From a virus: a DNA stretch of 28,410 nucleotides. Every line of letters starts with the position of its first letter. Position 1 is the first letter of the stretch. The stretch lies in the IMG/VR virus record IMGVR_UViG_3300006028_000029, positions 1 through 28,410 of that record; one strand, written 5' to 3'. Under the pieces are notes generated by a model that ran no database searches, was not told where the DNA came from, and saw only the letters and a list, made by a program, of their open reading frames with translations. The position numbers were made by a program, and so were the translations under genes. This document shows positions 9,529-28,398 of this stretch, piece after piece.

Positions 9529-9556
9529 TTGACGGCCGCCGCGGCTCTGATACCGT
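9529..9556 (+). promoter_or_regulatory. Candidate sigma70-like promoter in the gap after the 262-aa gene
   Basis: TTGACG (9529-9534) and TACCGT (9551-9556) are separated by 16 bases, and TG at 9548-9549 makes the -10 look extended. The -10 matches the relaxed TAnnnT pattern. The segment also contains TCTGATAC (9546-9553), the third copy of the recurring gap motif. Transcription would start near 9563, just before a run of hairpins and a terminator. This is a motif reading only. Confidence 0.35.
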
Positions 9557-9562
9557 AGCTTC

Positions 9563-9651: not shown

Positions 9652-9701
9652 CGTTCGACCGTCAGATCGATCAGCAGATGGATAGAAAGAGTCGGTAGCA
9701 G

Positions 9702-10133: not shown

Positions 10134-10152
10134 ACCAACGTAGGAGAGCTCG

Positions 10153-10533: not shown

Positions 10534-10775
10534 ACAAGCGCACCCAGGAGCAACCAGCGATCATCAGCTTCATCACTGTCATCAAGGACGGTGGTGGGGC
10601 GGAAGGATACGAAAGACAGTTCTGGCAGATGATCGCGTTTGCGGCTCGATACGGTAGGCAGCCAGTGCTCGCACTGATCGGTGACTTGACCATGACTCGA
10701 CTGATCTCGTTCAGCGAGGCTTTGAACGAACTGCTCGAAGCGGAGAACAAGCGGCGCACTTCCAGGGAGGACTAG
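10153..10775 (+). CDS. Tail assembly chaperone, frameshifted (GT-like) fusion
   Basis: A -1 slip at 10500-10506 joins the first 118 codons to a reading frame that stays open for 89 more codons, from GGG 10506 to the TAG at 10773-10775, giving a protein of about 207 aa. The extension has no strong start of its own. It reads GKSQDQSWLDKRTQEQPAII at first, then includes FWQMIAFAARYGRQPVLALI, and ends LTMTRLISFSEALNELLEAE followed by a charged tail. A short helical T domain of this kind, ending three bases before the tape measure start, matches the G/GT arrangement of long-tailed phages. Coordinates span both frames. Confidence 0.82.
10500..10506 (+). promoter_or_regulatory. Programmed -1 ribosomal frameshift site, T TTT TTG
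   Basis: The heptamer is in the X XXY YYZ phase relative to the chaperone frame (Ser, then TTT, TTG). It stands between the two overlapping reading frames. Downstream, GCTGG (10525-10529) can pair with CCAGC (10554-10558), a possible but weak stimulatory structure. Slippage here is required to read the 89-codon T frame. Confidence 0.82.
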
Positions 10776-10778
10776 CTC

Positions 10779-12539
10779 GTGTCTGAAGAGGACGAAGTAG
10801 AGATCCCACTCACCGTAAAGGACCACGCGTCGAAGGTCCTGGAGAAGATCGCCCACGCGGGCGAGAAGATGAGCCATACGATGGACCATGCCGCGGCCAA
10901 GATGGCCGAGCTCGGCATGGCCGTAGCTGGCCTCGCTGGTGGGATCGGCCTCGAGCGGATGGTCGAGACAGGCAAGGAGTACCTCGAGCAGATCTCTCGC
11001 ATGTCGAAGCTGACTGGCCAGTCGGCGAACAGCATCGCGGGCATGCGGCACGCCTTCGAGCTCTCTGGCTTGTCGGGCGAGCAGCTGGCCGCGACGATGT
11101 CCGCGATCAGCAAGAAGTCGGCGATGATGCAGGAGGGCGGCGGCAAGCTGCTCAAGCAGGCCAAGCAGTGGGGCGTCGATCTCGAGCACGGTCCTCAGAA
11201 GACGATGACCTCGATGGCCAAGCTGGTCGAGAAGCACAAGATCGGCGCCGGCCAGGTATCGCAGCTCCTCCGCGTCAGCGGTGACTCCCTCGGCGGGATG
11301 ATGGACCTGCTGAAGAAGGGCCCCGAAGAAGTCGGCAAGATGATCGACGACGGGCGGGCGAAGAACAAGTTCGTCAACGAGGAGACCATGGGCGCGTTCG
11401 AGCGCTACCAGGAAGCCTCGCGCCAGATCCATCAGGCATGGACTCGTCTGTCGGCCAAGGTCGTCACGTCGCTCGCACCCGTCCTCGAGAAGCTGTCCGA
11501 CAAGCTCTCAGCGTGGATGGACAAGATGGGCGACGGCGCTGGTCACTTCACCGACATCCTCGTCAAGGGGATGGAGAAGGGGATCGAGCACGCGCGAACG
11601 ATCGGCAAGCTCATGGCTGCCAACATGCTGCTGGAGAAATTCCACGGGCATGGGCTGTCGGGGACGCTGCTCCAAGTCGGCGAGAAGGGTGGCAAGATGG
11701 GCGAGCATCTTGGCGAGCACCTCTTGAAGGGCGCAGGCAAGTTCTCCAAGTACGTGAGCACCGCCAAGAGCCTCGGGACTTCAGGCAGTGGGGCGATGCG
11801 TAACGTGGGGACCTTCCTCGGCCCGATCGCGCGCATCCTCGGTCCGCTCGCGGGGGCGTTCTCGAAGCTCGGCCCAATCGTCACGGGGTTCATGGGGCTA
11901 GCAGGCAAGGCGTCCATCATCGGCCTTGCTGTGTTCGCGATCGGCGCTGTGATGTCGAACCTCAACGAGATCGGCAGCAGGTTGAAGCCCATCATCGACA
12001 TCATCTGGCAGAACCTCTCGCTCATCGGCAAGCTGTTCTCCGACATCTTCAAGAGCTCGGCCGCCCAGAGCGTTGCGGCACTCCTCGGCCAAGCGGTCGT
12101 GATCCTGACTGAGATCGTCGGCGGCGTCGCAGTGCTCGTGAACAAGTTGCTTGGCGGGCCGAGCGATCCTGGCCGAGCCAACGCGGCCAACATCAACGCT
12201 AACGAGCGCTGGCGAACGAGCCTCGCTGACTTCGCGTACAACGCTGCTGGTGGCGGCGCGAAGGGTCGAGCAGCTGCCAAGAACATTTGGTACAAGCCCC
12301 TCAAGGACGAGCACGACGAGGCCATGCGGAAGAAGGCCGAGCTCGCCAAGCGCAGCGAGGACAACGGCGCGCAGACGGGGCTCTACCAGGACTTCCGCGG
12401 CTCGCGGTTCGAGATCACCCAGGCCTTCTCTGAGGGCTTTGACCCCGACCGCGTGGCTTCGGCGTTCGCCAACGACTTGGGCTCGCTCGGTGAGCGCAAG
12501 CTACAGAGCGGCTTCTCGCCGCTCTTTGGGATCAGGTAG
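10779..12539 (+). CDS. Tape measure protein
   Basis: 586 aa from GTG 10779, three bases after the T-frame stop. The long helical N-terminal half has a repeated heptad-like character (EKIAHAGEKMSHTMDHAAAK) and Gln/Ser-rich helices with SKLTGQSANSIAGMRHAFEL, typical of tape measure proteins. Hydrophobic, Gly-rich segments at about residues 343-395 and 430-460 could insert into the host membrane during DNA ejection. Position after the frameshifted chaperone pair fixes the role. At about 1.5 angstrom per residue the tail would be near 85-90 nm, fairly short for a myovirus. No lytic enzyme domain is visible. Confidence 0.85.
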   Translation: MSEEDEVEIPLTVKDHASKVLEKIAHAGEKMSHTMDHAAAKMAELGMAVAGLAGGIGLERMVETGKEYLEQISRMSKLTGQSANSIAGMRHAFELSGLSGEQLAATMSAISKKSAMMQEGGGKLLKQAKQWGVDLEHGPQKTMTSMAKLVEKHKIGAGQVSQLLRVSGDSLGGMMDLLKKGPEEVGKMIDDGRAKNKFVNEETMGAFERYQEASRQIHQAWTRLSAKVVTSLAPVLEKLSDKLSAWMDKMGDGAGHFTDILVKGMEKGIEHARTIGKLMAANMLLEKFHGHGLSGTLLQVGEKGGKMGEHLGEHLLKGAGKFSKYVSTAKSLGTSGSGAMRNVGTFLGPIARILGPLAGAFSKLGPIVTGFMGLAGKASIIGLAVFAIGAVMSNLNEIGSRLKPIIDIIWQNLSLIGKLFSDIFKSSAAQSVAALLGQAVVILTEIVGGVAVLVNKLLGGPSDPGRANAANINANERWRTSLADFAYNAAGGGAKGRAAAKNIWYKPLKDEHDEAMRKKAELAKRSEDNGAQTGLYQDFRGSRFEITQAFSEGFDPDRVASAFANDLGSLGERKLQSGFSPLFGIR

Positions 12540-12541
12540 CC

Positions 12542-13654
12542 ATGACGCTCGTCGTAGACGGCGCGTCCACGTTCCGAGTCGAGGAGCTGACCGGAGACCA
12601 GCGCGACATCCGCTTGACCGGGCGCGCGCTGCCGTACCGCGGGCTCGAGCTCGCTGGGACGCAGCGGAACAGCATCGAGTGGTACAACGGCAACCCGATC
12701 GGCGTGCTCCAGGTCTTCGGCTCGAAGGAGGAGCCGACCGTCGTCAACGGGATGTGGAAGGACCGCTTCCTCGGCGACGGTGGCGGGCCAGCGCGCGGCG
12801 CGTGGGCGACGGTCGATGGCCTTGGCGTGCTCACGGCTCGCGAGCTCTGTGACGTCTTCAACGACGTGCGACGTAAGGGCCAGGAGATCGAGTTCACGTG
12901 GCTGGACCGAGTGCGCCGTGGGATCATCGAGAAGTTCTCGGAGAAGTGGGATAACGGCCACGACGTCACGTTCGAGATCGGCTTCGCGTGGACCTCGCAA
13001 GGCGAGAGCCTTCAGGACATCACGCTGGCGAGCGACTTCAACTCGGACCTCGCAGACGTCCCGAGTCAGATGCACTCGATCACGGATAACATCCAAGCTG
13101 GCGCAGCGATGTTCGCGAATGGCTTCAACGAAGCCTACTCGAGCACGGTTGGCCAGATCGACCTCGCCGGCGCAGCCATCATGGCTACGGTTGACGAGCT
13201 CGATGCGGCCGCGGTTGGGCTTGCCCAGTTCGAGTCGATCCCAGACTCGGCGATGCGCCGGGTCGGAGGCATCTTAGACGGTCTCAAGCTCGAGGCTGTC
13301 GACCTCGGTGAGGCTCTCCAAGGCAACGCCGATGGCGCCCGCTTGAACATCGGTGGGCCATTCGGGAAGGTGCTCGCCGACCGCGCGACCATCCGCAGCC
13401 AGTCAGACATCGCGAACCAGACGAGCGCACTCGCAGCTGCTCAGCAGCAGAAGCTCCTGCTCGGTGCCAAGTCGAACGTGATCGCGATCTACCAGGCGCG
13501 CGAAGGCGACGACCTGCGCCGCGTGTCGACGATCTATTACAAGACTCCCGACGAGTGGCGTGGGCTGATGGTCTACAACCACCTGACCTCCGACAAGCTC
13601 TCGGCAGGGCAGATGGTCATCGTGCCGACGACGGTGCCGAGGTTCAGTCCGTGA
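12542..13654 (+). CDS. Tail/baseplate connector protein with C-terminal LysM-like domain
   Basis: 370 aa, starting at ATG 12542 two bases after the tape measure stop. The N-terminal ~160 residues resemble the tail protein that sits on the hub, with RALPYRGLELAGTQRNSIEW, a VLQVFGSKEEPTVVNGMWKD block and TARELCDVFNDVRRKGQ. A helical middle region (about 160-300) follows. The C-terminus (about 313-365) is LysM-like: EGDDLRRVSTIYYKTPDEWR, then LSAGQMVIVPT. Such proteins join tube, tape measure and hub in contractile tails; the LysM-like part is structural there rather than proof of lytic activity. Overlaps the next gene by GTGA. Confidence 0.78.
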   Translation: MTLVVDGASTFRVEELTGDQRDIRLTGRALPYRGLELAGTQRNSIEWYNGNPIGVLQVFGSKEEPTVVNGMWKDRFLGDGGGPARGAWATVDGLGVLTARELCDVFNDVRRKGQEIEFTWLDRVRRGIIEKFSEKWDNGHDVTFEIGFAWTSQGESLQDITLASDFNSDLADVPSQMHSITDNIQAGAAMFANGFNEAYSSTVGQIDLAGAAIMATVDELDAAAVGLAQFESIPDSAMRRVGGILDGLKLEAVDLGEALQGNADGARLNIGGPFGKVLADRATIRSQSDIANQTSALAAAQQQKLLLGAKSNVIAIYQAREGDDLRRVSTIYYKTPDEWRGLMVYNHLTSDKLSAGQMVIVPTTVPRFSP

Positions 13655-15708
13655 GCAAGCCGAGCGACCAGGTCTTCTACGCCTCGGTGACGGTGAACCT
13701 CCGCCTGCGCTTCGACGAGTCGATGAAGGTGACAGAGATCCCCGACATCCCGGAGCCGCTCGATGCGACAGGCATCGCCGACGCGGTCAGCGGTGCCTCT
13801 GGTCCGCTCGTGCGACCTCTGATCACTCAGAAGGGGAAGGACAACCTCTCCTTCGTGATGAACCGCGTGCCGCGCATGGCTCACATAGAGCTCCCCGCCT
13901 ATCGGCAGGCGGGCAAGTTCTCGCTGGAGTTCGACTGGCGTGAACTCCCGATCGATCCTCGCCTGCTGCGAGCCATCGGCATCGAGATCTATGTCGGCTC
14001 TGTCGACCCGAGTGACTTCGCTACGGGGATGACTTCGATCGGGCAAGACGGACGCAGGCGCTCGGTGCTCCAGACTCAGGACGCGGCCGGCGCTCCGAAG
14101 GACGACCTGCTCGCCCTGTGCGGCGTCGTCGACACGTGGGCCGTGACACACGGCGAAGGCTCAACCATCAAGATGGAGGGGCGAGACCTGCGCGGGGTCC
14201 TCCTCGACTCACCGATCAATCCCAACGTGGTTGCCAAGATCGATTTGACGAGACCACTGGTCGTGGTCATCGCCGACATCATGCGCGCGCACCCGGCGGC
14301 GCAATACATGAAAATCCTGTACAACCCCGACGACTGGCCGAACGGTGTGCCGCCTCCGTGCGCTGACCGCGAAGGCATGACGCGCGTGCGGCAGGGTGCG
14401 GCGCGAGGCTCGACGCCGGCGACTACGTCTGACAAGCCGAAGAAGGAGAAGGTCGCGAACGAGACTGCGAAAGGGCTCCAGGGCGGCTCGTCGTCGGACA
14501 CAACCAGCTTCTGGGACCTGATCACGCGCTACTGCTTCCTCGTTGGGGCGATCCCGTTCTTCCGCGGACGCAACCTCATCATCAGGCCTGCGCGGTCGAT
14601 CTTCGACCAGAGCAAGCCAGTCGGCCAAGAAGCTTCGGGGCTGCGCGCCGGCCTGAACAAGTTCAACGCAGCCGTGACCCAGTTTGGCACCGGCGGGCTC
14701 GTCCAGTCGACCGAGAAGACCTGGGATCCCGTGTTCGGCGGCAACGGCGTGCGGATCGACGATGACGGGCGACCGTTCACGGTGCGCAAGTTCGTCTACG
14801 GCCGCAACGTCAAGGAGCTGTCCTTCGAGCGCAAGTTCACTGGAGTCAAGGTCCCTGTGATCGAGCTCGTGTCCTACGACACCTCGAGCACCAACCGAGG
14901 CAAGGCCAAGCTCCTCATCGCGCAGTGGCCGCCAGAAGACGAGAAGCTGGCCCGCATGTCCGGCGTGTCACCGAGTGGCGAAGTCTCGCAGACCGACCGC
15001 GTCCAGATCTCGGTGCCGGGCGTACGTGACCTCAAGCAGCTCACTTCGATGGCACGCGACCTCTATGAAGAGATCGGCCGCGGCGAGATGGGCGGCTCGT
15101 GCAAGACGGGGTTCCTGTCTTCGTACAAAGGCAGCAACGCCGACCCCGACATCTGCCGCCTGCGCCCTGGGCACGCGGTCGAGTTCTCGATGGACACTCG
15201 GCAGCTGTCTTCGACTGCCCCAGCTGCGAACACCAAGCTCGCGCTCGATCGCTCCTCGTTCGAGGACGCGGTCAAGCAGATCAAGCGGAGCCTCGGGAGC
15301 TCCGATGAGAACCTCGCGCGTGTGATCGTGGCGTCGTCGCGTTCGGCAGTGCTCGGGCAGATGAACACGTTCAGGAGCTCCAACGTGGTGTTCAGCTGGG
15401 ACCTGAGCGCTGGCCTCCAGACCTCGTTCGACTTCCAGAACTACCTCGTGGTTCGCCACGACGTCGGCGAGAAGCTCGGCGCGAACACGACGCCAGCGGT
15501 AGAGACCACCGTGGCGCGCACGCCAAAGAAGGCCCCTCCGGTCAACGTGGCTCCGGGCCCGAGCAACCAACCAGGTGCCGGCCAATTCAACGGGGCGACC
15601 GGCTTCCGCAAGTTTGGAGGCATCAAGGAGGTCGGCAATGGCTTCATTGAGGTGCCTGTCGTAGGCTTTGAACCGTTCCCGGACCTGCCGCCGCTCAACC
15701 CGAAGTGA
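13651..15708 (+). CDS. Baseplate hub protein
   Basis: 685 aa from GTG 13651, overlapping the previous stop by four bases. A possible longer start at 13555 would run well into the upstream gene. The order (LysM-like protein, this gene, spike, gp25-like) identifies the gp27/gpD-type hub. The sequence has strand-rich domains, e.g. KFSLEFDWRELPIDPRLLRA and GEGSTIKMEGRDLRGVLLDS, the latter typical of hub proteins. A Lys/Ser/Thr-rich linker lies near residues 245-285 (TSDKPKKEKVANETAKGLQG). The C-terminal ~60 residues are Pro/Gly-rich. The hub would form the trimer that closes the tube and carries the spike. Confidence 0.78.
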   Translation: MSKPSDQVFYASVTVNLRLRFDESMKVTEIPDIPEPLDATGIADAVSGASGPLVRPLITQKGKDNLSFVMNRVPRMAHIELPAYRQAGKFSLEFDWRELPIDPRLLRAIGIEIYVGSVDPSDFATGMTSIGQDGRRRSVLQTQDAAGAPKDDLLALCGVVDTWAVTHGEGSTIKMEGRDLRGVLLDSPINPNVVAKIDLTRPLVVVIADIMRAHPAAQYMKILYNPDDWPNGVPPPCADREGMTRVRQGAARGSTPATTSDKPKKEKVANETAKGLQGGSSSDTTSFWDLITRYCFLVGAIPFFRGRNLIIRPARSIFDQSKPVGQEASGLRAGLNKFNAAVTQFGTGGLVQSTEKTWDPVFGGNGVRIDDDGRPFTVRKFVYGRNVKELSFERKFTGVKVPVIELVSYDTSSTNRGKAKLLIAQWPPEDEKLARMSGVSPSGEVSQTDRVQISVPGVRDLKQLTSMARDLYEEIGRGEMGGSCKTGFLSSYKGSNADPDICRLRPGHAVEFSMDTRQLSSTAPAANTKLALDRSSFEDAVKQIKRSLGSSDENLARVIVASSRSAVLGQMNTFRSSNVVFSWDLSAGLQTSFDFQNYLVVRHDVGEKLGANTTPAVETTVARTPKKAPPVNVAPGPSNQPGAGQFNGATGFRKFGGIKEVGNGFIEVPVVGFEPFPDLPPLNPK

Positions 15709-16306: not shown

Positions 16307-17118
16307 CCGCGCCTGTCGGTCTCGCCCCGTTCGGCCCGAGCCAGTGGGGCTCGGGCATCGTCCCCGTCTCGATGGTCACGGCCTACGCGATCTCGACTAG
16401 GCAGGTCTACGTGCTGTTCTCTGGTGCGTTGCAAGCGCGCTCGGGCGTGCTCAAGGGCGACGCTCTGAACCCAGGGACCTGGAAGGTCGTACGGCTCGAC
16501 ACGAACGCCGTGGTGCCGATGGTCGGCGTGCGGCTGCGATCCCCGAGCGAGGTCGTAGTCACGTGCCTCGATCCTTTGCCGCCGTTCACGGACTTCGCAA
16601 CGATCTCAGCCCCAGAGCTCAAAGACGCAGCCGGTACACTGATCAGCCTTCCGCGTGACATGACCTTCGCTGGTCTGACTGAGGCGGCGATCTCGACACC
16701 TGAGAAAATCGTGCAGGGCGCGACCGTCCAGCACCGCGACCTTTTGAACTACGCTGCGATCAATCTTGGCGTGCAGGGTGGTGGGACGCTAGTCGTCGCA
16801 GGCGGCGACTACGTGAACCAGAGCGGCGTGGACCTCATCCGCAAGCTGGTCCTTCGTCGCATCCTGACGACCCCAGGTGACTTCTTCTGGCTCCCCGAGT
16901 ACGGGGTCGGGCTGCGCGTCAAAGAGCCGATCCCAGCCGGCGACGTCGTGAAGCTCCGCGCGGCCATCGAACGCCAAGTCTCTCTCGAGCCCGAGGTGAC
17001 CAACGTCAAGGCAAGTGTGACGCAGTCGGCCAATCTGCTGACCGTGATAGTGTCCGTCGTCGTGCGCACCACCGGACAATCGTTGACCGTTACGGCTTCG
17101 GCCAAGGTAGGTCTCTAG
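16303..17118 (+). CDS. Baseplate wedge protein, gp25/gpW-like domain
   Basis: 271 aa from GTG 16303, overlapping the spike stop. The C-terminal ~100 residues (about 170-271) have the gp25-like pattern DLIRKLVLRRILTTPGDFFW, LPEYGVGLRVKEPIPAGD, then a helix and EPEVTNVKASVTQS with a final strand pair. The first ~165 residues form an extra beta-rich domain (TRQVYVLFSGALQ, VGVRLRSPSEVVVTCLDPLP) absent from the short classical gp25 (~130 aa), so this is an N-terminally extended version. It should join the sheath ring to the baseplate wedge. The TAG stop shares its last base with the next GTG start. Confidence 0.82.
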   Translation: MTAPVGLAPFGPSQWGSGIVPVSMVTAYAISTRQVYVLFSGALQARSGVLKGDALNPGTWKVVRLDTNAVVPMVGVRLRSPSEVVVTCLDPLPPFTDFATISAPELKDAAGTLISLPRDMTFAGLTEAAISTPEKIVQGATVQHRDLLNYAAINLGVQGGGTLVVAGGDYVNQSGVDLIRKLVLRRILTTPGDFFWLPEYGVGLRVKEPIPAGDVVKLRAAIERQVSLEPEVTNVKASVTQSANLLTVIVSVVVRTTGQSLTVTASAKVGL

Positions 17119-18326
17119 TGGCTGACTTTCCAACACGAGGGGACCTCTTCCGCGTTGCACGCGATGCGATCCTGACCAAGAACGCTCAGCTCTCGGCCGA
17201 GGCTGTCACCCGCGACGGCACCGACGCGAACATCCTCGTCATGGCCGGCGCAGCGATGGGCGACAAGGTCATCGGGCAGCTCGTGCTTGTGTCGGCTGGG
17301 CAGTTCCTCGATTCGTCTGAGGGTCAGCAGCTCGACCGGCTGGTCTTCGACCGCTACGGCCTGATCCGCAAGCCGGCCGCACCGGCGATGGTCAACGTGG
17401 CCTTCTCGACGGCCGCGCCGGCAGTGAGCGCGTTCGCGATCCCCGTTGGGACCGTGTTGTCGACAGCCTCCGGCGTCCAGTTCGTGACCCTCGTCGCGAC
17501 CTCGATCTCAGCTGGCGACTCTGGGCCGGTCTACGTGCCTGCGCGGTCGATCCTCGCAGGCGCTGACCAGCAGATCAAAAAGGGTGACATCAACTCGGTC
17601 GTGTCATCGATCCCGGGCGCGCCGTCTGCTGGCGTGGTGGTGACGAACGGCGCAGCCTCAGCTGGTGCGTCCAACCGCGAGCAGGACGAGGCCCTCCGCG
17701 ATCGAGCTCGCAGGTTCTGGGTCACTGCCCAGCGCGGGACGCTTGCTGCCATCGAGACGGGCGCGTTGACTGTCCCCGGCGTGCTACGTGCGGCCGCGAT
17801 TGAAGTGACCGATGCAAGCCTGCGCCCTGGGCGCTGGGTCATGTGCATCGTGTCGGACAGCTTCACCGACGCGCTCGCCCAGCTGAACGAGACCTCCTCG
17901 AGTTACCAGGCGCAGTCGCAGGCGCTGGCGACTCAGGTGTTCCAGGCCTTGAACGAGTTCCGTTGTGGCGGGATCTACGTGCAGGTGATCGTGGCGCAGG
18001 TGATCCTGCTCCAGGTCAACCTCTCGCTGTCCTTCTCGGCCGGCGTCGATACGCTATCGGTCGCGAACAACGCCCGCGCAGCCGTCGCTTCGTACATCAA
18101 CGAGCTCGACCCGGGGGCGACGTTCTTCCCGAGCGACGCGCTCGCTCGCCTGCGTCAGGTCGCTGGTCTCGTCATCACTGGCGGCGAGATCTCTTCGCCT
18201 GCCGGCCCCGTCGTCCCGAAGATCCTCCAGGTGCTCCGCACCCAGGCTCAGCTGCTCAACGCGAGCAACAGCGGTCTACCGATCGCAGCGACCATCAATC
18301 CCGACACCCTTGTGGTGGCAGCGTAG
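17118..18326 (+). CDS. Baseplate J-like protein
   Basis: 402 aa from GTG 17118, overlapping the previous stop by one base. The pattern is that of baseplate J (gpJ/gp6-like) wedge proteins: an N-terminal helix, SEGQQLDRLVFDRYGLIRKP, a strand-rich block AIPVGTVLSTASGVQFVTLV (about 113-132), VYVPARSILAGADQQIKKGD, and SNREQDEALRDRARRFW near 190-207. The C-terminal half alternates strands and helices and includes VQVIVAQVILLQVNLSLSFS. It would form the wedge arms with the gp25-like protein. Its TAG stop lies within the Shine-Dalgarno of the next gene. Confidence 0.84.
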   Translation: MADFPTRGDLFRVARDAILTKNAQLSAEAVTRDGTDANILVMAGAAMGDKVIGQLVLVSAGQFLDSSEGQQLDRLVFDRYGLIRKPAAPAMVNVAFSTAAPAVSAFAIPVGTVLSTASGVQFVTLVATSISAGDSGPVYVPARSILAGADQQIKKGDINSVVSSIPGAPSAGVVVTNGAASAGASNREQDEALRDRARRFWVTAQRGTLAAIETGALTVPGVLRAAAIEVTDASLRPGRWVMCIVSDSFTDALAQLNETSSSYQAQSQALATQVFQALNEFRCGGIYVQVIVAQVILLQVNLSLSFSAGVDTLSVANNARAAVASYINELDPGATFFPSDALARLRQVAGLVITGGEISSPAGPVVPKILQVLRTQAQLLNASNSGLPIAATINPDTLVVAA

Positions 18327-18333
18327 GAGACCT

Positions 18334-21300
18334 ATGAAGAAGATCTCGCTATTGATCGTGTCAGCGGTGGCAGCCCTCTCGGCTGTCACCACGGTCGCGT
18401 TTGGTGATGGCGGGCAGCTAACCGATGGCGGCCTGAAGCGGGTCAGTCACGGAGCGTCGCTCACCGGCAGCGGGACCCCATCCAGTCCGCTGGACGTGCA
18501 CACGGCGACAGGCGGCGGCCTCACCGGCGGCGGCGCAGTCTCGCTCAAGCTCGTCGACTGCTCAGTCACTGGGCAGGTGCTCGTGTGGAACGGTGCGACG
18601 TGGGCGTGCGGTGCTGGCGGGATCACGAACAGCGCCGGCAACCACGTGGTGCCAGTGAGCAACGGAACGAACCTGATCGCATCGTCCATCACTGACGACG
18701 GCACGACGCTCTGCCTCACCGGCAGTGCTGGCGGCCCCAATTGCGCAGGAGGAACGAGCGGTATCGATATCGCCGTTCAGGCAGGCGACACGCTTCCCGC
18801 CATGACGTACTTCTCGACCGATCCAGCTGGTCCGCAGATCATGCAACGGATGCACTGGTTCGCTACGAACCACAACCCGACCATCTCAGGCCAGATCTTG
18901 CCGCTTGAGATCATGTCGACAGGGACTGCCGATACTACCGATGGCGCCTACCAGGTCTACGGCATGGAGGCGGATGCGAAAGTATCCCGCGCCATCGGTA
19001 CAGCTCCCGTGACTGACGTGGCCTACCTCGGCAACGCTCAGAACGGAGACTTCAACTGGGCGTTCTACGCGGTGCACGGCATCTTCAAAAGCGATGACGG
19101 CGCTGATCTCGGAGCGACTCTCGCCACGACGTTCCACGCTTCAGGCGCAGCCCAGTTCGATACGACCGTGCACGAGGTGGCCGGTACAGCCGCGTTCGAT
19201 GGCGGTGCAGACATCGGTTCCAGCCCAGGCTTTCATGTCGACATCCAAGGCACAGTCAAGCAGCCGACTGCGAACCCTGCGATCGCAATCAGCGACAGCC
19301 AGACTGAACAGCTGATCTCGCTCGCGACGACCGCGTCAGGCGGCCATAAGTACAAGATGGTCGCCAGCGGCACTGGCGGCTACTGGAACTCCGCGGGGTT
19401 CACGTTCGCTGACGACTCTGGGTGTTCTGTACTTGGTTGTGCGCTGTGGCAGACAGACCAGGCTACGAATTCGTTCTGGCTGCCCGAGAACCTCACGGTC
19501 GGACACACGACGCTGACCAGCAACACGACCAACGACACGTTCATCGATCTCCAGAACACGTCGGCCGGTGGGCGCGAGTACAAGCTCGACGACGGCGGTA
19601 CCTCCAGTGCGTTCGGTGCGGCGGGTCTCTATCTGAAAGACGTGACGCTCGGCTCGAACGTGCTGTCGTTCAATACGAGCGGTGTCGCCACCATCGGCTT
19701 TGGGTTCACAGCAGGTGCCGACTCTTCGATGGGGTCCCACAAGATCACATCGCTGACCAACGGGTCGTCGTCGAGTGACGCGGCTGCATTCGGGCAGATC
19801 GCGACAGCTGTGAGCACGGCTGTCTCTGGCACTACGAACACGATCCCCAAGATCGCTTCTGCTAACACCCTGGGCGACTCGAGCCTGACGGACGACGGCA
19901 CGAAGGTTCTCACCTCGGAGTCTCTCGGTGTTGGGAGCGTGACCTCGCCGGCGAGCAAGCTCGACGTGAAGATCAACGCGGACGCGACCACCCCGCAGCC
20001 TGTGATCACGTTTGGCAATATCTTCTCTGCGCAAAACTTCGGAGCGACGATCGGGGTGAACTCAGGTAAGAGTGTCGTGCTCGGAACGTCGTCAGCGAAC
20101 ACCGCGTGGATCTTCAATAACTCGTCGAGCGTCCAGATCCTCAGGCTAGACACGAAGCTCGGCAACCCAGCGATCGTCGTATCGCGAGATGACACCGGCT
20201 CCCACGCCGATCGACCAATCGTCTCCATCCAGAACACGGCGACCACGGGATCGTTCAACCATCGAGCTGAGCTAGACTTCAGCACTGCCGACACGACTGG
20301 AACGCTCCAGACGACCAGCCTCCTTGCTGACGGCGTATCACTGAAGGTCAACAACCCGACCGAAGTGGACCTTAGTGCCGCCAGCACGATCGAGCTCGCA
20401 GTCACCGCCGGCACAGTTGCTGTTCAGCACGCGGCGACAGTGGGGACGACGCTCAACGTGGTCGGAGCCCTGACCGAGGCGAGCAACCGCGTCCACTCGG
20501 CTGTCACTGCTGGTGGCGGTCTCACTGCCTCCGCGAACTCTGTCGGTCTGCTGACCTCGTGCGGCACCAACAACGTGCTCGCGTGGTCGGGGTCGGCGTG
20601 GGCGTGCTCGACCATCTCCGGTGCCGGCGGTGGCACCGTAACGTCGGTCGTTGCCGGCACCGGGCTATCCGGCGGTACGATCACAACGAGCGGGACTATT
20701 GCAGTCAACCTCTCGGCTACGACGTGCAGCGCTGGTTCCGTAGTCACCGCGATCGACTCGTCTGGCAATGGTACGTGCACCGCGTTCTCGCAGAACTCAG
20801 GCTGGTACAGCCAAGGCACTGATGGTGCGATCGCATGGGACGGCACGAACGCGCGACTTGGCATCACACCGAGCAGCAGTGTCTACACGTTGACGCGTGA
20901 CGTCTTCACGTCCGGCGCAACGGTCAGTACTGGTGTGAAGATCGCAACCAACGGCTACCGCTACTTCGACAACGGCGTGCTCACGCTGACTGGCACCGCG
21001 AACATCAACGACGATGGCGCAGTAGGCGTGAACGCGACTACGACCGGCGTCAGAGCAACCGCTACGATCATTCGCGGAGCTGCAATCTTGGGCCGAGGCA
21101 CGCAGGGTGGCGGCAGCGCCGGCAGCGCTGCAACCTCCAACGCGAGTTTTGGCTGCACAGCTGCGACCGCCTCAGCAGGTGGCAATGTCGGCGGCGCGGG
21201 CGGCGCAGGCACGGTCGGAGGCACCGGCAGCGCGTGTGGTGGCGGTGGCGGTGGCGGTGCGGGCAATAGCGCCGGCGGTGTCGGCGGCGTCGGCACGACT

Positions 21301-21783
21301 GGCGGGGCTGTCACGGTCCGCTCGGCGACTGATGGTTTCTATGTGCAAGATCTGCTAGTCGCTCGCTCAGGTCGACCTTCCGGCCCGATCACATCTACGA
21401 CCGAGCTCCTCGCCGGCAGCGGCGGCGGAGCTGGTGGCATCGGCATCACCGGCTCAGGCGCCGGTGGTGGCGGCGGTGCCGGCGGTAACGGCGGTGGGAT
21501 CGTCTACGTCGACGCCAAGCAGATTTCCGGCACAGGTACGATCACAGCCAACGGCGGGGTTGGTGGTAACGGTTTCCCAGCGACTGGGACCTCAGGCGGA
21601 GGCGGAGGCGGAGGCGGAGGCGGAGGCGGCTACGCGATCTGCCACGTCGCAGTCGGCCTGTGCCCAACGATGACCGCAACCGGAGGCCTCGGCGGTAGCG
21701 GCTCAGCTGGTCTAGGTGGCGGCGGTGCAGGAGCGAACGGTGGTCCAGGCGGCAATGGTCTCGTTATCAAGTTCGAGCCCTAG
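18334..21783 (+). CDS. Tail-fibre-like protein with N-terminal signal peptide and polyglycine C-terminus
   Basis: 1149 aa, starting at ATG 18334 with TAGGAGA (18324-18330). Residues 1-~25 (MKKISLLIVSAVAALSAVTT...) are a textbook signal peptide with a likely signal peptidase I site near TVA/FG. Then come a C...W..W.C module (to about residue 92), a long beta-rich fibre region, and MGSHKITSLTNGSSSSDAAA (from about 466), a motif common in phage fibres. A second C/W module ends at about 758. A 74-residue block (822-895) and a glycine-rich domain with a final ...IKFEP follow; both are shared with the lipoprotein gene at 22258. Position after baseplate J suggests a fibre, but an export signal on a virion protein is odd. 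It could instead act on the host surface. Confidence 0.72.
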   Translation: MKKISLLIVSAVAALSAVTTVAFGDGGQLTDGGLKRVSHGASLTGSGTPSSPLDVHTATGGGLTGGGAVSLKLVDCSVTGQVLVWNGATWACGAGGITNSAGNHVVPVSNGTNLIASSITDDGTTLCLTGSAGGPNCAGGTSGIDIAVQAGDTLPAMTYFSTDPAGPQIMQRMHWFATNHNPTISGQILPLEIMSTGTADTTDGAYQVYGMEADAKVSRAIGTAPVTDVAYLGNAQNGDFNWAFYAVHGIFKSDDGADLGATLATTFHASGAAQFDTTVHEVAGTAAFDGGADIGSSPGFHVDIQGTVKQPTANPAIAISDSQTEQLISLATTASGGHKYKMVASGTGGYWNSAGFTFADDSGCSVLGCALWQTDQATNSFWLPENLTVGHTTLTSNTTNDTFIDLQNTSAGGREYKLDDGGTSSAFGAAGLYLKDVTLGSNVLSFNTSGVATIGFGFTAGADSSMGSHKITSLTNGSSSSDAAAFGQIATAVSTAVSGTTNTIPKIASANTLGDSSLTDDGTKVLTSESLGVGSVTSPASKLDVKINADATTPQPVITFGNIFSAQNFGATIGVNSGKSVVLGTSSANTAWIFNNSSSVQILRLDTKLGNPAIVVSRDDTGSHADRPIVSIQNTATTGSFNHRAELDFSTADTTGTLQTTSLLADGVSLKVNNPTEVDLSAASTIELAVTAGTVAVQHAATVGTTLNVVGALTEASNRVHSAVTAGGGLTASANSVGLLTSCGTNNVLAWSGSAWACSTISGAGGGTVTSVVAGTGLSGGTITTSGTIAVNLSATTCSAGSVVTAIDSSGNGTCTAFSQNSGWYSQGTDGAIAWDGTNARLGITPSSSVYTLTRDVFTSGATVSTGVKIATNGYRYFDNGVLTLTGTANINDDGAVGVNATTTGVRATATIIRGAAILGRGTQGGGSAGSAATSNASFGCTAATASAGGNVGGAGGAGTVGGTGSACGGGGGGGAGNSAGGVGGVGTTGGAVTVRSATDGFYVQDLLVARSGRPSGPITSTTELLAGSGGGAGGIGITGSGAGGGGGAGGNGGGIVYVDAKQISGTGTITANGGVGGNGFPATGTSGGGGGGGGGGGGYAICHVAVGLCPTMTATGGLGGSGSAGLGGGGAGANGGPGGNGLVIKFEP
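20797..21018 (+). repeat. Paralogous 74-residue segment, copy 1
   Basis: Encodes residues 822-895 of the signal-peptide fibre-like protein. Copy 2 is at 22522-22743. A gap-free hand alignment gives about 46 identical residues of 74; shared stretches include DGAIAWD, RLGITPS and NGYRY. The similarity continues more loosely through the glycine-rich ends of both proteins. Confidence 0.85.
21595..21630 (+). repeat. GGCGGA hexanucleotide tandem repeat
   Basis: Five GGCGGA units followed by GGCGGC, in frame, encode an unbroken glycine tract within the polyglycine domain. Copy-number change by slippage would lengthen or shorten the tract without shifting the frame. Confidence 0.9.
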
Positions 21784-21804
21784 ATCGTGTATACAGGAGG
21801 CACA

Positions 21805-22248
21805 ATGTTCACCCGCTCAAGGAATCACATGCGCCCCATCGTTCTAGCTCTCGCCATCAGTTTCTGCGCCTGCGCGCACGCCGTGCCCGCGAAGCCGGCC
21901 AACCTCGCTGCGGTCTACGTGCACGCAGTCGATCCCGACGCCAAGTTCCTCGTGTTCGACGGCGACGGTCCAGACGCTGTGCTCACGTTCTCGCATCTGT
22001 CACTGCTGTACTGCCAGACCAACACAGCCAAGCGAACCACGTGCGCATTGCTCGCCGACATGAACCCGAAGCCAGCTGCGGCCACGGCTCCTCCGGTCCA
22101 CGAAGGCTCGAAGCCCGACGCAGCGAAGGCAGACACGACTCCGATGCACGAAGGATCGAAGCCCCCAGTCGACCCGAAGGTTGACCCAACCAAAGTCGAT
22201 CCTGCGCCTGCTAAGCCGGCACCACCTGCGAAAGCTCCGAAGAAATAA
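21805..22248 (+). CDS. Secreted small proline-rich protein, 147 aa, unknown
   Basis: ATG 21805 has AGGAGG (21795-21800). ATG 21829 (with AAGGAA upstream) is a second possible start that leaves a shorter signal peptide. MRPIVLALAISFCACAHA followed by VPAKP looks like a signal peptide with an AHA-type signal peptidase I site; no proper lipobox is present. The mature part has a small folded region of ~50 residues (VYVHAVDPDAKFLVFDGDGP, two Cys). A disordered tail follows, with a duplicated HEGSKP (once after PPV, once after TPM), KVDP repeats and a Lys/Pro/Ala-rich end. It lies between the two export-signal fibre-like genes, so it probably belongs to the same functional set. Function unknown. 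Confidence 0.7.
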   Translation: MFTRSRNHMRPIVLALAISFCACAHAVPAKPANLAAVYVHAVDPDAKFLVFDGDGPDAVLTFSHLSLLYCQTNTAKRTTCALLADMNPKPAAATAPPVHEGSKPDAAKADTTPMHEGSKPPVDPKVDPTKVDPAPAKPAPPAKAPKK

Positions 22249-22257
22249 GGAGACACC

Positions 22258-23481
22258 GTGAGCAAGCTCCTCGTCCTTCTCGCGATCGTTGGTTGCTCTC
22301 CGGACCAACCAGACACCGCGGGTCACCGTGTTGGTGGTCCGTTGTCGCCGCAAGGCGGCACCGTCACCTCTGTCCTCCCCACGAGTGGCGGAGGTCTCGC
22401 GGGCGGCGGTACGGGTGGGGTGCTTCACCTCGGCCTTGTGACGTCGTGCAATCCGACCGAGGTGCTCGCTTGGAGCGGATCGACGTGGGCTTGTTCAGCT
22501 TCTAGCAGCGGAGCGCAGTCCTCCGGCTGGTTCGGTGATGGCGTCGATGGTGCCATCGCATGGGACTGCACCAACACACGTCTCGGCATCACACCGAGCG
22601 GTGGTGTGTACCTGCTTAGTCGCGACGTCTACACCAAGAACGCAACAATCAGCAACGCGTGCACGGTCTCGACCAACGGCTACCGTTACCGCGACAGCGG
22701 CAACATCGTGATGACCGGGACTGGGAACATCTCGGACGACGGTTGCACAGGGCCGAACGCCTCAGGTGCGACGAGCGGTACGGCGTGCACTGGTCGCACT
22801 GCCACGATCTTCTCGGTCTCAGCTTCTGGCAACGGCGGCTCGTCGTCCAACGTCCCCCCTAACGAGTGCGTGAACGGCACCACTGGCGGCGTCGGCACGA
22901 GCGGCCTCGGAGGGACCGGACCCACGGGGACAACAGGCTCCGCATGTCAAGGCGGCTCTGGCGGCGGCGCTGGCAACGCGACCACCTCGGTTGGCGGCTC
23001 GTCATCCGCCGGCGGAACCGTCACGGTTGCTTCGGCCAACCTGATCGCAGACGTCAACGACTACCTCGTCGCTGAGCGCGGGCGGACGATCAATAACATC
23101 GTCCTGAGCCCAGGCTCTGGTGGCGGTCGCGGTGGCGTCGGGATCGCGGGCGTTGGCACATCTGGAGGAGGTGGTGGAGGCGGTGGCGGTGGCGGCTGGG
23201 TGTACGTCGCAGCCAAACAGATCACTGGAGGCTCCATCCACGCCAACGGGGGCAACGGCGGCACAGGCGCGGCCGGTGCTGGTGGCGGCGGGTCTGGAGG
23301 CGGTGGCGCAGGTGGTGCTGGTGGCATCGCTGTGTGTCGTGTCGCAGTCGGAACGTGTCCAACGACCACAGCCAACGGCGGGACCGGAGGCGCTGGTGCG
23401 AGCGGTGTCGCTGGTGGTGGTGGCGGTGGAACCGGGGGGACCGGCGGAGTCGGAATCGTCCACGTGTTTGAACCATCATGA
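22258..23481 (+). CDS. Glycine-rich lipoprotein, paralogue of the fibre-like protein
   Basis: 407 aa from GTG 22258 with AAGGAGA (22247-22253). MSKLLVLLAIVGC has a hydrophobic core and a good lipobox (I-V-G-C, Cys13); Ser follows the Cys, which fits outer-membrane sorting. Next come GGTVTSV...GLAGGGTGG and the C/W module (W72, W77, C79), the 74-residue segment shared with the upstream gene (89-162), and a polyglycine domain to the end (VFEPS). By my count ten cysteines follow the lipid-bearing one, which would fit disulphides outside the cytoplasm. It looks like a shortened, lipid-anchored copy of the fibre-like C-terminus. It overlaps the next gene by ATGA. Confidence 0.75.
   Translation: MSKLLVLLAIVGCSPDQPDTAGHRVGGPLSPQGGTVTSVLPTSGGGLAGGGTGGVLHLGLVTSCNPTEVLAWSGSTWACSASSSGAQSSGWFGDGVDGAIAWDCTNTRLGITPSGGVYLLSRDVYTKNATISNACTVSTNGYRYRDSGNIVMTGTGNISDDGCTGPNASGATSGTACTGRTATIFSVSASGNGGSSSNVPPNECVNGTTGGVGTSGLGGTGPTGTTGSACQGGSGGGAGNATTSVGGSSSAGGTVTVASANLIADVNDYLVAERGRTINNIVLSPGSGGGRGGVGIAGVGTSGGGGGGGGGGGWVYVAAKQITGGSIHANGGNGGTGAAGAGGGGSGGGGAGGAGGIAVCRVAVGTCPTTTANGGTGGAGASGVAGGGGGGTGGTGGVGIVHVFEPS
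22522..22743 (+). repeat. Paralogous 74-residue segment, copy 2
   Basis: Encodes residues 89-162 of the lipoprotein and matches copy 1 at 20797-21018. It differs mainly by gained cysteines (WDC, NAC, DGC) and by conservative changes. Confidence 0.85.
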
Positions 23482-24959
23482 TCGCACTTGGTGAAACCGA
23501 CCCGCTTGCAGCCGAAGTCCCGTTCACGCTTCCGTTGCAGTCCAACCCGATCAACGGGTTGGACAATCACGTCTTCGTGCTCGGTGAGGTCGAGATCCGC
23601 TTGCCGAACGGCGGCTGGTTCGACGTCCCACTCGACCAGATCTTCTTCATCGGCGAAGCGAACTCTGGCCTCTACGCCGTTCGCCTGACGGCCTCCCAGT
23701 GCGCGGCTCCAGGCCTCGTCTCGATTCATGCCGACGTCGCGACAGCTCAGCCGTACAACGGCGAAGAGACCATCGGGATGATCGGCGGAGACATCGGCGT
23801 CAACGGCGTCGGCTACGTCCCGTTCTTCCTCCCGAACGCTGATGACCCCGTGTACGGTTCGCCGATCACGGCCTACTCGTTCGTGCTCGGTGAGGTCCGC
23901 GTGCGCATGCCTGGGGCAGGCTGGACCAACGCGGTCCTGCTCGACATCATCGAGACAGGCTTCGGCGCGTACAAGCTCAGGATCCAGAGCGCGGTTCGCG
24001 GCAAGGTCTACATCAACGCCACTGCAACCGGAGCTCAGCGCTTCAGCGACTACGTCACCGTGCTCGATGCAGGCCCCAATGGCTCGGGCAGTGTGTCGCC
24101 TATCACCGACCTCGAGCTGCTGCGAACGTTCATGCTGATCTACGACCCCGACGGCAACCTCGCCGACACGTGCGTCCCGGTCGGCTCGGAGCTCCAGATC
24201 TCGCTGTCGGGCTCGCCGTTCTTCGACGCCACGGGATCGTTCGTGCGCACCGGCGAAGGAGCGTTCTACTACCAGTCGCCTATCGGCGAGCGGATCGAGG
24301 GCTTCCTCGGCGTGAAGGTCAAGGCCGCTGACGATCGCTTCATCGAGTCAATCGCGTACACCAAAGTCCCAGGCATGTCGGGCAAGCTCTACATCCCGAT
24401 GCTCGTGCGGAACAACGGCGAGCTCGCTCCAGGCTGCGACCCGTCGGGACCGGGCGAGCTTCAGATGTCGCAGAACGGTGACCTGTGGGAAGCCGCGACG
24501 GGGACGTTCGCTGAGGTCGGCGACGGCCTCTACTACTACGTCCACGACGTCCTCAACTACCCGGGCCAGCTCGAGATCAAAGTCTCGGTCGCTGGCTTCG
24601 ATGAAGAGATCGCGTGGGGCTCGCTGCCGGGCCACGCCAGCAGTGGCGCCATCGTGCTGTCCAACATCTCCCCGGAGCAGGACAGCATCATCAACTCGGC
24701 GAGCTTCATCCAGTTCGACATCACGGATGATACGAGCCCGCTCCAGCTGGTCATCCCAGGTGTGCTGCTCGACCCGAACGCAGCCCCAGAGATTGTCCAC
24801 GACGGCACCGACTTCACGCCCCGCTACAAGAAGCACTCCAGCCGTTGGACGTTGCCGACTGGCTTCCGGTACCGCTTCCTACGCACCGGGGGCTGGCCCA
24901 TCCCTCCTCAGCTGCGCCTTTGGGCAGCTGACTTCAGTGGTAACGTGCTGGCCCTATGA
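23478..24959 (+). CDS. Multi-domain beta-repeat baseplate/fibre protein
   Basis: 493 aa from ATG 23478, overlapping the lipoprotein stop. Four tandem beta-domains are visible at about residues 14-95, 113-195, 215-300 and 304-390. Each has a strand-turn pattern of the type VLGEVEIRLPNGGW ... G.GLYAVRLT. Copies 1 and 2 share FVLGEV, while copies 3 and 4 share a G-E-LQ-S core, so two pairs are likely. The last ~100 residues form a different domain (SFIQFDITDDTSPLQLVIPG, then RFLRTGGWP and WAADFSGNVLAL), like a bacterial Ig-type fold. There is no signal peptide. Probably a baseplate-attached structural or fibre-connector protein. Confidence 0.7.
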   Translation: MIALGETDPLAAEVPFTLPLQSNPINGLDNHVFVLGEVEIRLPNGGWFDVPLDQIFFIGEANSGLYAVRLTASQCAAPGLVSIHADVATAQPYNGEETIGMIGGDIGVNGVGYVPFFLPNADDPVYGSPITAYSFVLGEVRVRMPGAGWTNAVLLDIIETGFGAYKLRIQSAVRGKVYINATATGAQRFSDYVTVLDAGPNGSGSVSPITDLELLRTFMLIYDPDGNLADTCVPVGSELQISLSGSPFFDATGSFVRTGEGAFYYQSPIGERIEGFLGVKVKAADDRFIESIAYTKVPGMSGKLYIPMLVRNNGELAPGCDPSGPGELQMSQNGDLWEAATGTFAEVGDGLYYYVHDVLNYPGQLEIKVSVAGFDEEIAWGSLPGHASSGAIVLSNISPEQDSIINSASFIQFDITDDTSPLQLVIPGVLLDPNAAPEIVHDGTDFTPRYKKHSSRWTLPTGFRYRFLRTGGWPIPPQLRLWAADFSGNVLAL

Positions 24960-26256: not shown

Positions 26257-27588
26257 ATGGCCGACGCCCCGTTCAACCGCACCCCGATCTACCCGCTCGA
26301 GAAGCCGCTCTCGGTGGACGTCAACCAAGGGTTCAGCCAGAGCGACCGCACGCTCCGCGACACGTTCTTCAGGCTGCTCGGGGGCGCCAGCGGCTTCCTC
26401 CGAAGCGGCTTCCAGTGCCAGGCCTCTGGCCCGCCGGCGATGAGCGTCGTGCTCGCGGCGGGGACGGCCTTCCAAGATGCCCCCACCGACACGCCAGCTG
26501 CCATCGGCGGAGTGCTCGGGGTGGACGACCTCTGCCGGTACAAGCCGATCATCCTCTCGAACGACCTGACGGTGGCCGTGCCGACTGCTCCGGTCGCGAA
26601 CAGCCGCATCGACCTGATCGAGGTTCGGTACAACCGCCAGCTGGACAATTCGCAGTCGAGGCAGTTCCTCGACCCGACCACCGACGCGTTCTCTCCGGCC
26701 TTCCAGCCGAAGACCCTCGACTTCAACGTGGACGCCACGATGGCGTACTACGCAGCCGCTGCGACCCCAACCACAGCCTTCGCCTACAAGAGTGGCGTGG
26801 TTGGCGCGTCGCCGGCCGCCCCTGCGGTGGACACTGGTTACATGCCGATCGCGTACATCACGGTCGGCACAGGTGTCCTCACGATCGTGGCGGCGAACAT
26901 CGCTGACGCCCGCGCGATGATCGCACCAGCTGCCTATGCTGGTCGTCAGACCTTCACGGCGAACGGCACATACACCCCGACGCCCGGCGCAGTGATGGCC
27001 CTGATCAGGGCGTGCGGCGGCGGCGGTGGCTCAGGCGGTATCCACTGCACCGCCGGCAACGTTGCTGCCGCTGGTGCGGGCGCGTCCGGCGTCACCGTCG
27101 AGAAGTTGATGACTGCGGTGTCAGGTCAGCTCACGGGTGGCGCAGTCGTGATCGGCGCAGGCGGGACTGCTGGCCCCGGCGGCGCCGGGCTCTTGCCCGG
27201 TGGAGACGGTGGAGACACCTCGGCGGTAGTCAACGGCGTCACGATCCTTGCCAAAGGCGGCGCGGGTAGCACTGCGGGCGCAGATTTTGGCACGCAGGTC
27301 AGCTGCGCACCCGGATCCAAGCCGCTCGCTGGTTCTGCCAACTTCGACACCTTCACCGCGGAGCACGGTGAGATCAGTGTGGCGACAGCCACGAACCAGT
27401 TCGCCCCAGGTTCTGGCGGGTCGAGCCCGTTCGGAATCGGCGGAGCCGGCAAGCCCGGCGCACCTCCGACCGCAGAAGCTGCAACTGGCCACGGAGCCGG
27501 CGGCGGCGGTACGACCTGTGTTGGCGCCTTCGATTCGGCCGGCGCAGCTGGCTCAGGCGGGATCGTCCAGATCGACGAATGGTTCTAG
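26257..27588 (+). CDS. Tail fibre protein with glycine-rich C-terminal domain
   Basis: 443 aa, starting at ATG 26257 with ATAGGAG (26241-26247). The N-terminus (PFNRTPIYPLEKPLSVDVNQ, SDRTLRDTFFRLLGG) and the ANSRIDLIEVRYNRQLDNSQ block are like baseplate-anchoring regions of phage fibres. From about residue 231 the protein becomes a glycine-rich domain opening with FTANGTYTPTPGAVMALIRA and CGGGGGSGG, and ends GSGGIVQIDEWF. This matches glycine-rich phage fibre tips that may fold as polyglycine-II sandwiches. It has no signal peptide, in contrast to the two glycine-rich proteins upstream, so it is the best candidate for the true receptor-binding fibre. Confidence 0.78.
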   Translation: MADAPFNRTPIYPLEKPLSVDVNQGFSQSDRTLRDTFFRLLGGASGFLRSGFQCQASGPPAMSVVLAAGTAFQDAPTDTPAAIGGVLGVDDLCRYKPIILSNDLTVAVPTAPVANSRIDLIEVRYNRQLDNSQSRQFLDPTTDAFSPAFQPKTLDFNVDATMAYYAAAATPTTAFAYKSGVVGASPAAPAVDTGYMPIAYITVGTGVLTIVAANIADARAMIAPAAYAGRQTFTANGTYTPTPGAVMALIRACGGGGGSGGIHCTAGNVAAAGAGASGVTVEKLMTAVSGQLTGGAVVIGAGGTAGPGGAGLLPGGDGGDTSAVVNGVTILAKGGAGSTAGADFGTQVSCAPGSKPLAGSANFDTFTAEHGEISVATATNQFAPGSGGSSPFGIGGAGKPGAPPTAEAATGHGAGGGGTTCVGAFDSAGAAGSGGIVQIDEWF

Positions 27589-27591
27589 GCC

Positions 27592-28398
27592 ATGACTCGC
27601 TCGCTCATCATGATCAACGGCGTGGATGGGTCGGATGATGACCTGCCGATCAACACGCTCGTAAACCTGTCGAACGACGGCAATGGCGGCGAGGTCACGT
27701 ACCTCTGGGCCATCGTCGACCAACCCGAGGGGACAGCCGACGTGCTGTCCGCGACCACGATCCAGTCACCGACGTTCACTCCGAAGAAGGAGGGGACATA
27801 CCTGCTCAAGCTGGTCGTGAACCAAAGCCTCTCGGACGAGAGGTCCTCCACGGCCATCGTTGCGATCCGTCAGATGCGGACCTATCTCCGCATCCCGGCT
27901 GCAAGCGAGACGACCGAGGACAGCCTTTCGACCGGCTGGGCGCGCGCAGTGAGCCGGCAGCTGCAAGAGCTGAACGACACCGCGACCGACGCGAACCTGG
28001 TCGCAGCGCAGGTGCCTGGGGTCGGCTACGGCCAAGGCATGGTCGTCGCGTTGACCGGCACTGCTGTGATCAAGACTGGCCTCCCGGGCGAAGAGGTCGT
28101 GATGACGGCTGAGCACGCGCTGGCTACCAGCGTGTCACTCATCAAGTACAAGCTCGGCGTGATCGAGCGGACCGCGAACGGCCTCTCGTCTGTGGCCGGT
28201 AGCATGGTCCTCGTTCGGTTGATGGGCCTGTCACCTCTCGCGGTCGCAGGAGCTCCTACGGCTGGAGATCCCGTGTACCTCTCGGACACGGGCGCGCCTG
28301 CGCTTGTGGCTGGCACGCACTCGAAGGTCATCGGCAAAGTGCTGTCGGTTGCCGGCGGGTTCTACTACTGGTTCGTTGACGCTGGGCAGGTGTCGTGA
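27592..28398 (+). CDS. Ig/PKD-like virion protein, 268 aa
   Basis: ATG 27592 lies three bases after the fibre stop; no clear Shine-Dalgarno. Residues ~1-92 look like a PKD/Ig-type beta-sandwich (GGEVTYLWAIVDQPEGTADV, then TYLLKLVVNQ). A helical linker follows (WARAVSRQLQELNDTATDAN). The C-terminal ~120 residues are strand-rich with GDPVYLSDTGAPALVAGTHS and KVIGKVLSVAGG, a pattern seen in small phage capsid/fibre-associated domains. It follows the fibre and could be a fibre-associated adhesin or assembly protein. Specific role unknown. It shares GTGA with the next frame. Confidence 0.7.
   Translation: MTRSLIMINGVDGSDDDLPINTLVNLSNDGNGGEVTYLWAIVDQPEGTADVLSATTIQSPTFTPKKEGTYLLKLVVNQSLSDERSSTAIVAIRQMRTYLRIPAASETTEDSLSTGWARAVSRQLQELNDTATDANLVAAQVPGVGYGQGMVVALTGTAVIKTGLPGEEVVMTAEHALATSVSLIKYKLGVIERTANGLSSVAGSMVLVRLMGLSPLAVAGAPTAGDPVYLSDTGAPALVAGTHSKVIGKVLSVAGGFYYWFVDAGQVS

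Follow-up and report, generated by a model that had tools for sequence, protein, structure and literature searches.

The cytoplasm is the place where phage tail fibres are assumed to be built and attached. Lambda Lom, an OmpX-type beta barrel of the outer membrane, is encoded between J and the side-fibre genes. To our knowledge, the known Gly-rich fibre tips, such as S16 gp38 and Pam3 gp24, carry no signal peptide, and we know of no precedent in tailed phages for virion fibres that mature in the periplasm. In these two proteins a distal Gly-rich region serves receptor recognition, and their N-termini dock on the virion (PMC9608196). The gene of T5 Llp, a protein that blocks the receptor, adjoins the gene of the receptor-binding protein, an intramolecular disulfide is common to Llp and Cor, and purified receptor-binding protein blocks infection when added alone (PMC9586334); going by the title of a reference listed there, Llp is expressed early in infection (PMC9586334). 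A description of signal peptides of tail fibres as a class was not found in the open-access PMC literature. The locus described here consists of three consecutive phage genes, A, B and C, with N-terminal export signals.

Gene layout and export signals

The window, that is, the whole stretch of DNA analysed, is a virus record of 28.4 kb with no longer contig behind it, and A, B and C are open frames inside a capsid-to-baseplate operon on its + strand (Table 1). The J-like gene ends 8 bases before the start of A, which therefore adjoins a tail gene as the Llp and Cor genes do. The gene at 16303 has a weak baseplate match (phrog_975, E 4e-4). The first-pass annotation had placed baseplate genes on both flanks, which holds for the Baseplate_J gene at 17118 and, weakly, for the J-like gene at 24956 (phrog_6, E 0.015), however, the gene at 23478 has no family match, and it was without a match in another 189 genomes as well. 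The J-like matches in the genome search are distant (29-34% identity). Further along the fibre cluster, 27592-28398 encodes a PKD domain (Pfam E 8e-6) and a region weakly resembling a phage cement protein.

Table 1. Positions of the genes, signals and domains of the locus within the window.
Feature	Position	Strand	Evidence
Upstream flank, Baseplate_J protein	17118..18326	+	Pfam PF04865 E 7.4e-24; phrog_6 E 6e-35; no signal
Gene A, 1149 aa, predicted exported fibre-like protein	18334..21783	+	start, signal, modules, relatives
N-terminal signal of A (some 17-24 residues; cleavage after ALSA or VAFG)	18334..18405	+	hydropathy 2.72, rule-based SPI
Cysteine-pair module 1 of A, C-SVTGQVLVWNGATWA-C	18559..18609	+	Cys 76 and 92
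Cysteine-pair module 2 of A, C-GTNNVLAWSGSAWA-C	20560..20607	+	Cys 743 and 758
Fibre-tip domain of A, GxDG...RDVF...TNGYR, then Gly-rich	20797..21780	+	profile match 20866-21009, E 1.7e-8
Gene B, 147 aa, predicted exported small protein	21805..22248	+	start, signal; no family match
Gene C, 407 aa, lipoprotein-type fibre-like protein	22258..23481	+	GTG start, lipobox, SPII call
Lipoprotein signal and lipobox cysteine (C13) of C	22258..22296	+	sequence, rule-based call
Cysteine-pair module of C, C-NPTEVLAWSGSTWA-C	22447..22494	+	exact pattern match; 0/100 shuffles
Fibre-tip/Gly-rich domain of C	22522..23478	+	profile match 22528-22728, E 7.9e-8
Downstream flank, repeat protein	23478..24959	+	39% identity, E 3e-19, to L102:14493-15488
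Ordinary Gly-rich tail fibre	26257..27588	+	PF21722 above cut-off; phrog_863 E 3e-18; no signal

The N-terminal signals read MKKISLLIVSAVAALSAVTTVAFG in A, MFTRSRNHMRPIVLALAISFCACAHA in B and, directly before the lipobox cysteine, MSKLLVLLAIVG in C; those of A and B are of the signal-peptidase-I type, that of C is a lipoprotein signal. Each start is preceded by a near-perfect Shine-Dalgarno sequence (AGGAGA at 18325-18330 before ATG 18334, AGGAGG at 21795-21800 before ATG 21805 and AAGGAGA at 22247-22253 before GTG 22258), and hence the signal sequences are very likely translated. The peak N-terminal hydropathy over 12 residues is 2.72 in A, 2.77 in B and 2.47 in C, and at most 1.89 in the other 25 genes scored. 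A rule-based Sec/lipobox predictor written for this analysis was positive for A, B and C only in the window; its background rate of 18/548 ORFs (3.3%) in 66 other phage loci implies that three consecutive signals arise by chance at about 4e-5 per position. These results bear out the signals first noted on the genes at 18334, 21805 and 22258, and the three products are very probably Sec-exported phage proteins, as judged from their sequences.

The three genes differ from the rest of the window in composition too, with a Cys content of 1.2-2.7%, compared to less than 1% in most other genes, and a GC3 of 0.68-0.73, compared to 0.77-0.92 in the neighbours. The highest Cys share of the window (4 Cys in 96 aa) belongs to an open frame at 8435-8725 that overlaps the end of the gene at 6384-8438 and may not be a gene.

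Cysteine modules and the fibre-tip domain

Protein A is composed of a signal peptide, two W-type cysteine-pair modules, a mid region and a C-terminal fibre-tip/Gly-rich domain. In C, the LAIVG-C lipobox is followed by an 'LSPQGGT' region, one cysteine-pair module and a fibre-tip/Gly-rich domain. With 54% identity between C and the final third of A over the length they share, the two are paralogues. B has a signal peptide of 24-26 aa, a short domain with one Cys pair (C70, C80) and a Pro/Ala/Lys-rich tail; it may be exported to help A and C, which is a guess from gene position. Searches of Pfam, PHROGs and NCBIfam gave no family match for the three proteins, tblastn of A and C against annotated phages returned no match, and a profile of A and C found chance matches only in the PDB. 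Peptide patterns recovered no A/C domain from GTDB genomes, and no relatives from IMG/VR for A, J, the 493-aa protein or the alignment of the two paralogues. The predicted structure of C has a mean pLDDT of 33, and a model of the 52-aa cysteine module reaches a pLDDT of 73.

The C-terminal part of A and C contains, in order, GxDG, RD[VM][FY], TNGYR and a Gly-rich region. When IMG/VR was scanned with a DNA pattern covering RD and TNGYR, 66 contigs were hit, and on reading the frames a fibre-like protein of like layout was present in all of them except L047 and L073. Because the pattern demands RD and TNGYR, what counts as independent evidence is the rest of the alignment and the GxDG part, which stood outside the search pattern and is present in most of these proteins. 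A profile built from 18 other phage proteins, with the window left out, matches A and C alone in the window, and a profile-profile comparison with the A/C domain gave a probability of 97.9% (E 6e-13). By these comparisons, the predicted fibre-tip domain of A and C is homologous to that of other phage fibres, several of which have tail-type N-termini in PHROGs. PF21722 (Gly_rich_2) scores above its cut-off for the gene at 26257 and gives no match for A and C. The domain was found in 0/195 genomes of one bacterial phylum, a set that holds no positive control genome.

Each cysteine module contains two Cys and two Trp. C fits the pattern C-x4-[VI]LxW[NST]GxxWxC exactly, module 2 of A has the same spacing and module 1 of A is one residue longer. 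This pattern occurs in 4 bacterial loci among GTDB genomes, and a looser version hit 18 viral contigs, 12 of which were real on reading; the matches in L076, L080, L081, L082, L084 and L091 were rejected as chance or frame artefacts. A Sec signal stands at the start of 11 of the 12 phage proteins with the module, the one counted as negative being that of L087, which has the module and no clear signal. A signal peptide is absent from all 47 distinct TNGYR-domain phage proteins whose 5' end is complete, which rules out that the signals belong to the Gly-rich domain. The signal thus goes with the cysteine modules rather than with the fibre-tip domain (11/12 versus 0/47, Fisher p 4e-11, which stands for a large effect rather than an exact probability, since the sequences are related). 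Module proteins are also present in 25/189 genomes of one bacterial phylum, and one module protein, that of L007, carries a Peptidase_S74 domain; 13 of 14 bacterial ones are exported by rule, and the 14th reads as a lipoprotein by eye. Furthermore, the Cys share is 1.2-3.5% in the exported fibre-like proteins, compared to 0.54% in fibres that have no signal. This would be consistent with disulfides formed outside the cytoplasm, and the paired cysteines of A-C probably form disulfides in the periplasm.

Fibre-like genes with export signals in other phages

The first-pass annotation had suggested looking for the genes at the same place in related phages, and similar exported fibre-like genes were found in L092, L102 and Bradyrhizobium phage ppBdUSDA122-1, within the limits set by the sequence patterns on which the surveys of relatives rest. 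The contig G201 (L092) belongs to a myovirus and encodes sheath, hub, wedge and baseplate J. Directly after J lie the genes of two exported fibre-like proteins (681 aa and 624 aa), then those of a structural protein, a signal-less fibre-like protein, an exported 135-aa protein and an exported 846-aa protein. The contig G209 (L102) encodes an exported 666-aa protein that is related to A and C; it shares the mid region of A (58% identity over 100 aa, L102:11828-13828), is 59% identical to C over 51 aa and contains a stretch that matches the annotated tail fibre of phage MW202742. The gene downstream of it on the same strand resembles the gene after C, which indicates a conserved neighbourhood. 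The 40.7 kb contig G203 has a reading frame that is unbroken across both ends, as in a circular genome. It is podovirus-like: after its terminase, portal and capsid genes lie those of four exported proteins (1560, 135, 1690 and 151 aa), a lysis-like region comes next, and no long fibre-like gene was seen in it besides the exported ones. Several exported proteins stand in a row in G204 and G206 as well. In L077 and L141 a classic fibre N-terminus follows the signal (in L141 this was read directly), and several exported fibres of one phage (L077/L092) have the region right after the signal in common. In L008, an exported cysteine-module protein lies beside an NlpC-like peptidase gene, and gene content judged by eye suggests that this contig is Mu-like.

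Small exported proteins accompany the large ones in L092 and L093, with no obvious sequence likeness to B. Those of L093 (5275-5682 and 10768-11223) lie next to giant exported proteins and are PKD-like and fibronectin-like by eye; like B, they may act as exported partners or chaperones. L097 (G206) encodes, at 6268-14313, a protein of 2681 aa in which a signal peptide is combined with 93 cysteines. Homing-endonuclease-like frames, GIY-YIG-like and LAGLIDADG-like by eye, occur at 9722-10417 of L092 and 3255-3659 of L075.

The exported protein of G209 also matches annotated tail fibres, including WAX24263 of ppBdUSDA122-1, the N-terminus of which reads MKLQRLLGAIGAVVMSVSTALA followed by AEQ. WAX24263 has a Collar domain (Pfam E 2.9e-10) and PHROGs tail-fibre matches, and WAX24264, encoded by the preceding gene, likewise begins with a signal; the two share their post-signal region, which occurs at two places in one record. 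Both genes are preceded by the central fibre J (phrog_31, E 7e-137) of a lambda-like tail module. Strain USDA 122 is named in a study of Bradyrhizobium phages that are produced spontaneously; its main text makes no mention of signal peptides, tail fibres or this phage name. In Virus Rctr41k (KX853513.1, L147), the protein encoded at 4996-6975 is of the lipoprotein type, is 659 aa long and has a Spherulin4 domain (Pfam E 8e-37); it may be a further case of an exported enzyme in fibre position. The gene directly upstream is long (763 aa) and matches part of the Bradyrhizobium tail fibre.

The general statement that fibre proteins lack export signals therefore agrees with the 0/47 count for proteins with the shared C-terminal domain, but not with the annotated tail-collar fibre of ppBdUSDA122-1, which has one. 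The initial description of the genes as an inserted cassette proved too narrow, as exported fibre-like genes occupy the fibre position of unrelated phages. Since like genes stand in this position elsewhere, A-C are quite probably not a one-off but members of a recurring class, namely exported, fibre-like proteins whose genes lie in the fibre locus of tailed phages.

Possible roles and known systems

Late expression of A-C is suggested by their operon position, and as late phage proteins they would be sent through the Sec system. The paired cysteines would be oxidised to disulfides in the periplasm, A would reside in the periplasm or outside, C would be anchored to the membrane by lipid, and both would expose a receptor-binding domain of the fibre-tip type outside the cytoplasm. 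The exported adhesins could then block or hide the receptors that the phage itself uses, both on the infected cell and on its debris, with the consequence that released progeny would not be trapped and superinfection would be blocked, as by T5 Llp and Cor. We tentatively put forward receptor masking as the end use of A-C in the window, and superinfection exclusion or receptor shielding is plausible. The lipobox of C and the separate signal-less fibre at 26257 are in support of masking; however, Llp-type proteins are small and Llp is described as early, while A-C are large, several per phage and placed among structural genes. In addition, the Collar domain and the fibre N-terminus of L077 and L141 are virion-type parts that a surface mask would not need.

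These virion-type parts, together with the MW202742-matching stretch of L102, would be expected if the exported proteins were genuine parts of the virion, fibres that fold and acquire their disulfides in the periplasm and dock on the baseplate only at or after lysis. The fibre-locus position in several phages fits this possibility as well, as does the post-signal region shared by the exported fibres of one phage, which is what fibres docking at one site would show, and in the circular G203 the exported proteins are the sole long fibre-like ones. Nevertheless, joining after lysis would suffer from dilution, the window, L092 and L102 also encode signal-less fibre-like proteins, C has a lipobox, and A and C are without a recognised docking N-terminus, which makes virion fibres a possible but doubtful reading. 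Its general form, that some tailed phages (that of the window with A-C, the uncultured myovirus, the podovirus-like circle and the Bradyrhizobium phage) have Sec-exported, disulfide-bonded, periplasmic receptor-binding fibres which join the virion only at lysis, appears slightly more doubtful still. Export and action outside the cytoplasm, as the first-pass annotation had it, are supported by the sequence, and action at the envelope and an unusual maturation of the fibres are both live models.

Export could also serve another extracellular purpose, such as host aggregation, adhesion to matrix or biofilm, or a lysogenic surface trait derived from host genes. Cysteine-module proteins are indeed native and exported in some bacteria of one phylum, including the L007 protein with its Peptidase_S74 domain, and the GC3 of A-C is below that of the flanking genes, but the C-terminal domain is found in phages and in 0/195 genomes of the same phylum, and the placement in the fibre locus recurs; we regard such a purpose as unlikely. 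The 0/195 count likewise weakens the idea of the entire cassette being a surface gene of the host. Finally, the N-termini might not serve export at all: they could anchor the proteins through their hydrophobicity during virion assembly, or they could remain, without activity, from an exported gene that was acquired. It is in principle conceivable that a baseplate accommodates a hydrophobic N-terminus, and the export of A-C is deduced from sequence, yet the cut sites are canonical AxA, the lipobox is canonical, cysteines are enriched, the signal is retained in 11/12 loci and bacterial homologues have the same design, all of which makes this explanation highly improbable.

Sec-exported, probably disulfide-built fibre or adhesin proteins are probably a recurring class, and their genes challenge the rule that tail fibres are made solely inside the cell. 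If such fibres are exported, there is either an extracytoplasmic assembly step or a conversion of fibre tips into surface shields, and either outcome would change the annotation of fibre genes and the interpretation of receptor-binding proteins. As one such gene stands in a Bradyrhizobium phage of known sequence, the question can be tested now.

Among the known systems, lambda Lom resembles A-C in being exported and in the place of its gene, between J and fibre genes; however, A-C are fibre-like and have no match to outer-membrane beta-barrel families in Pfam, PHROGs or NCBIfam. T5 Llp and T1 Cor are phage-encoded exported lipoproteins with a disulfide, the genes of which lie beside a receptor-binding or tail-tip gene (PMC9586334), and C shares with them the lipobox and the position near tail genes. 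While C has a lipoprotein signal of this kind, A and B are of the SPI type, and neither A nor C is a small single-domain protein; at 1149 and 407 aa both are far larger, fibre-built and equipped with a fibre-tip domain, and they have no sequence or family match to Llp or Cor. The Gly-rich distal region of A and C is comparable to that of S16 gp38 and Pam3 gp24, and dozens of phage contigs encode members of the TNGYR domain family, but A and C have signals and cysteine modules and no PF21722 match. The exported module proteins of bacteria (Acidobacteria and Myxococcales MAGs) combine signal and module as A and C do; they differ in that no phage fibre-tip/Gly-rich domain was found in them, and the L007 protein has an S74 end. 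Compared to phage tail fibres, A and C share the homologous fibre-tip domain and differ by the export signals, for which A, B and C are all positive. WAX24263 of ppBdUSDA122-1 is set apart by its Collar domain, and it has a region in common with the L102 relative of A, with no direct match found to A or C; together with WAX24264, it is like A and C in its signal peptide, its high Cys content and its fibre position after J.
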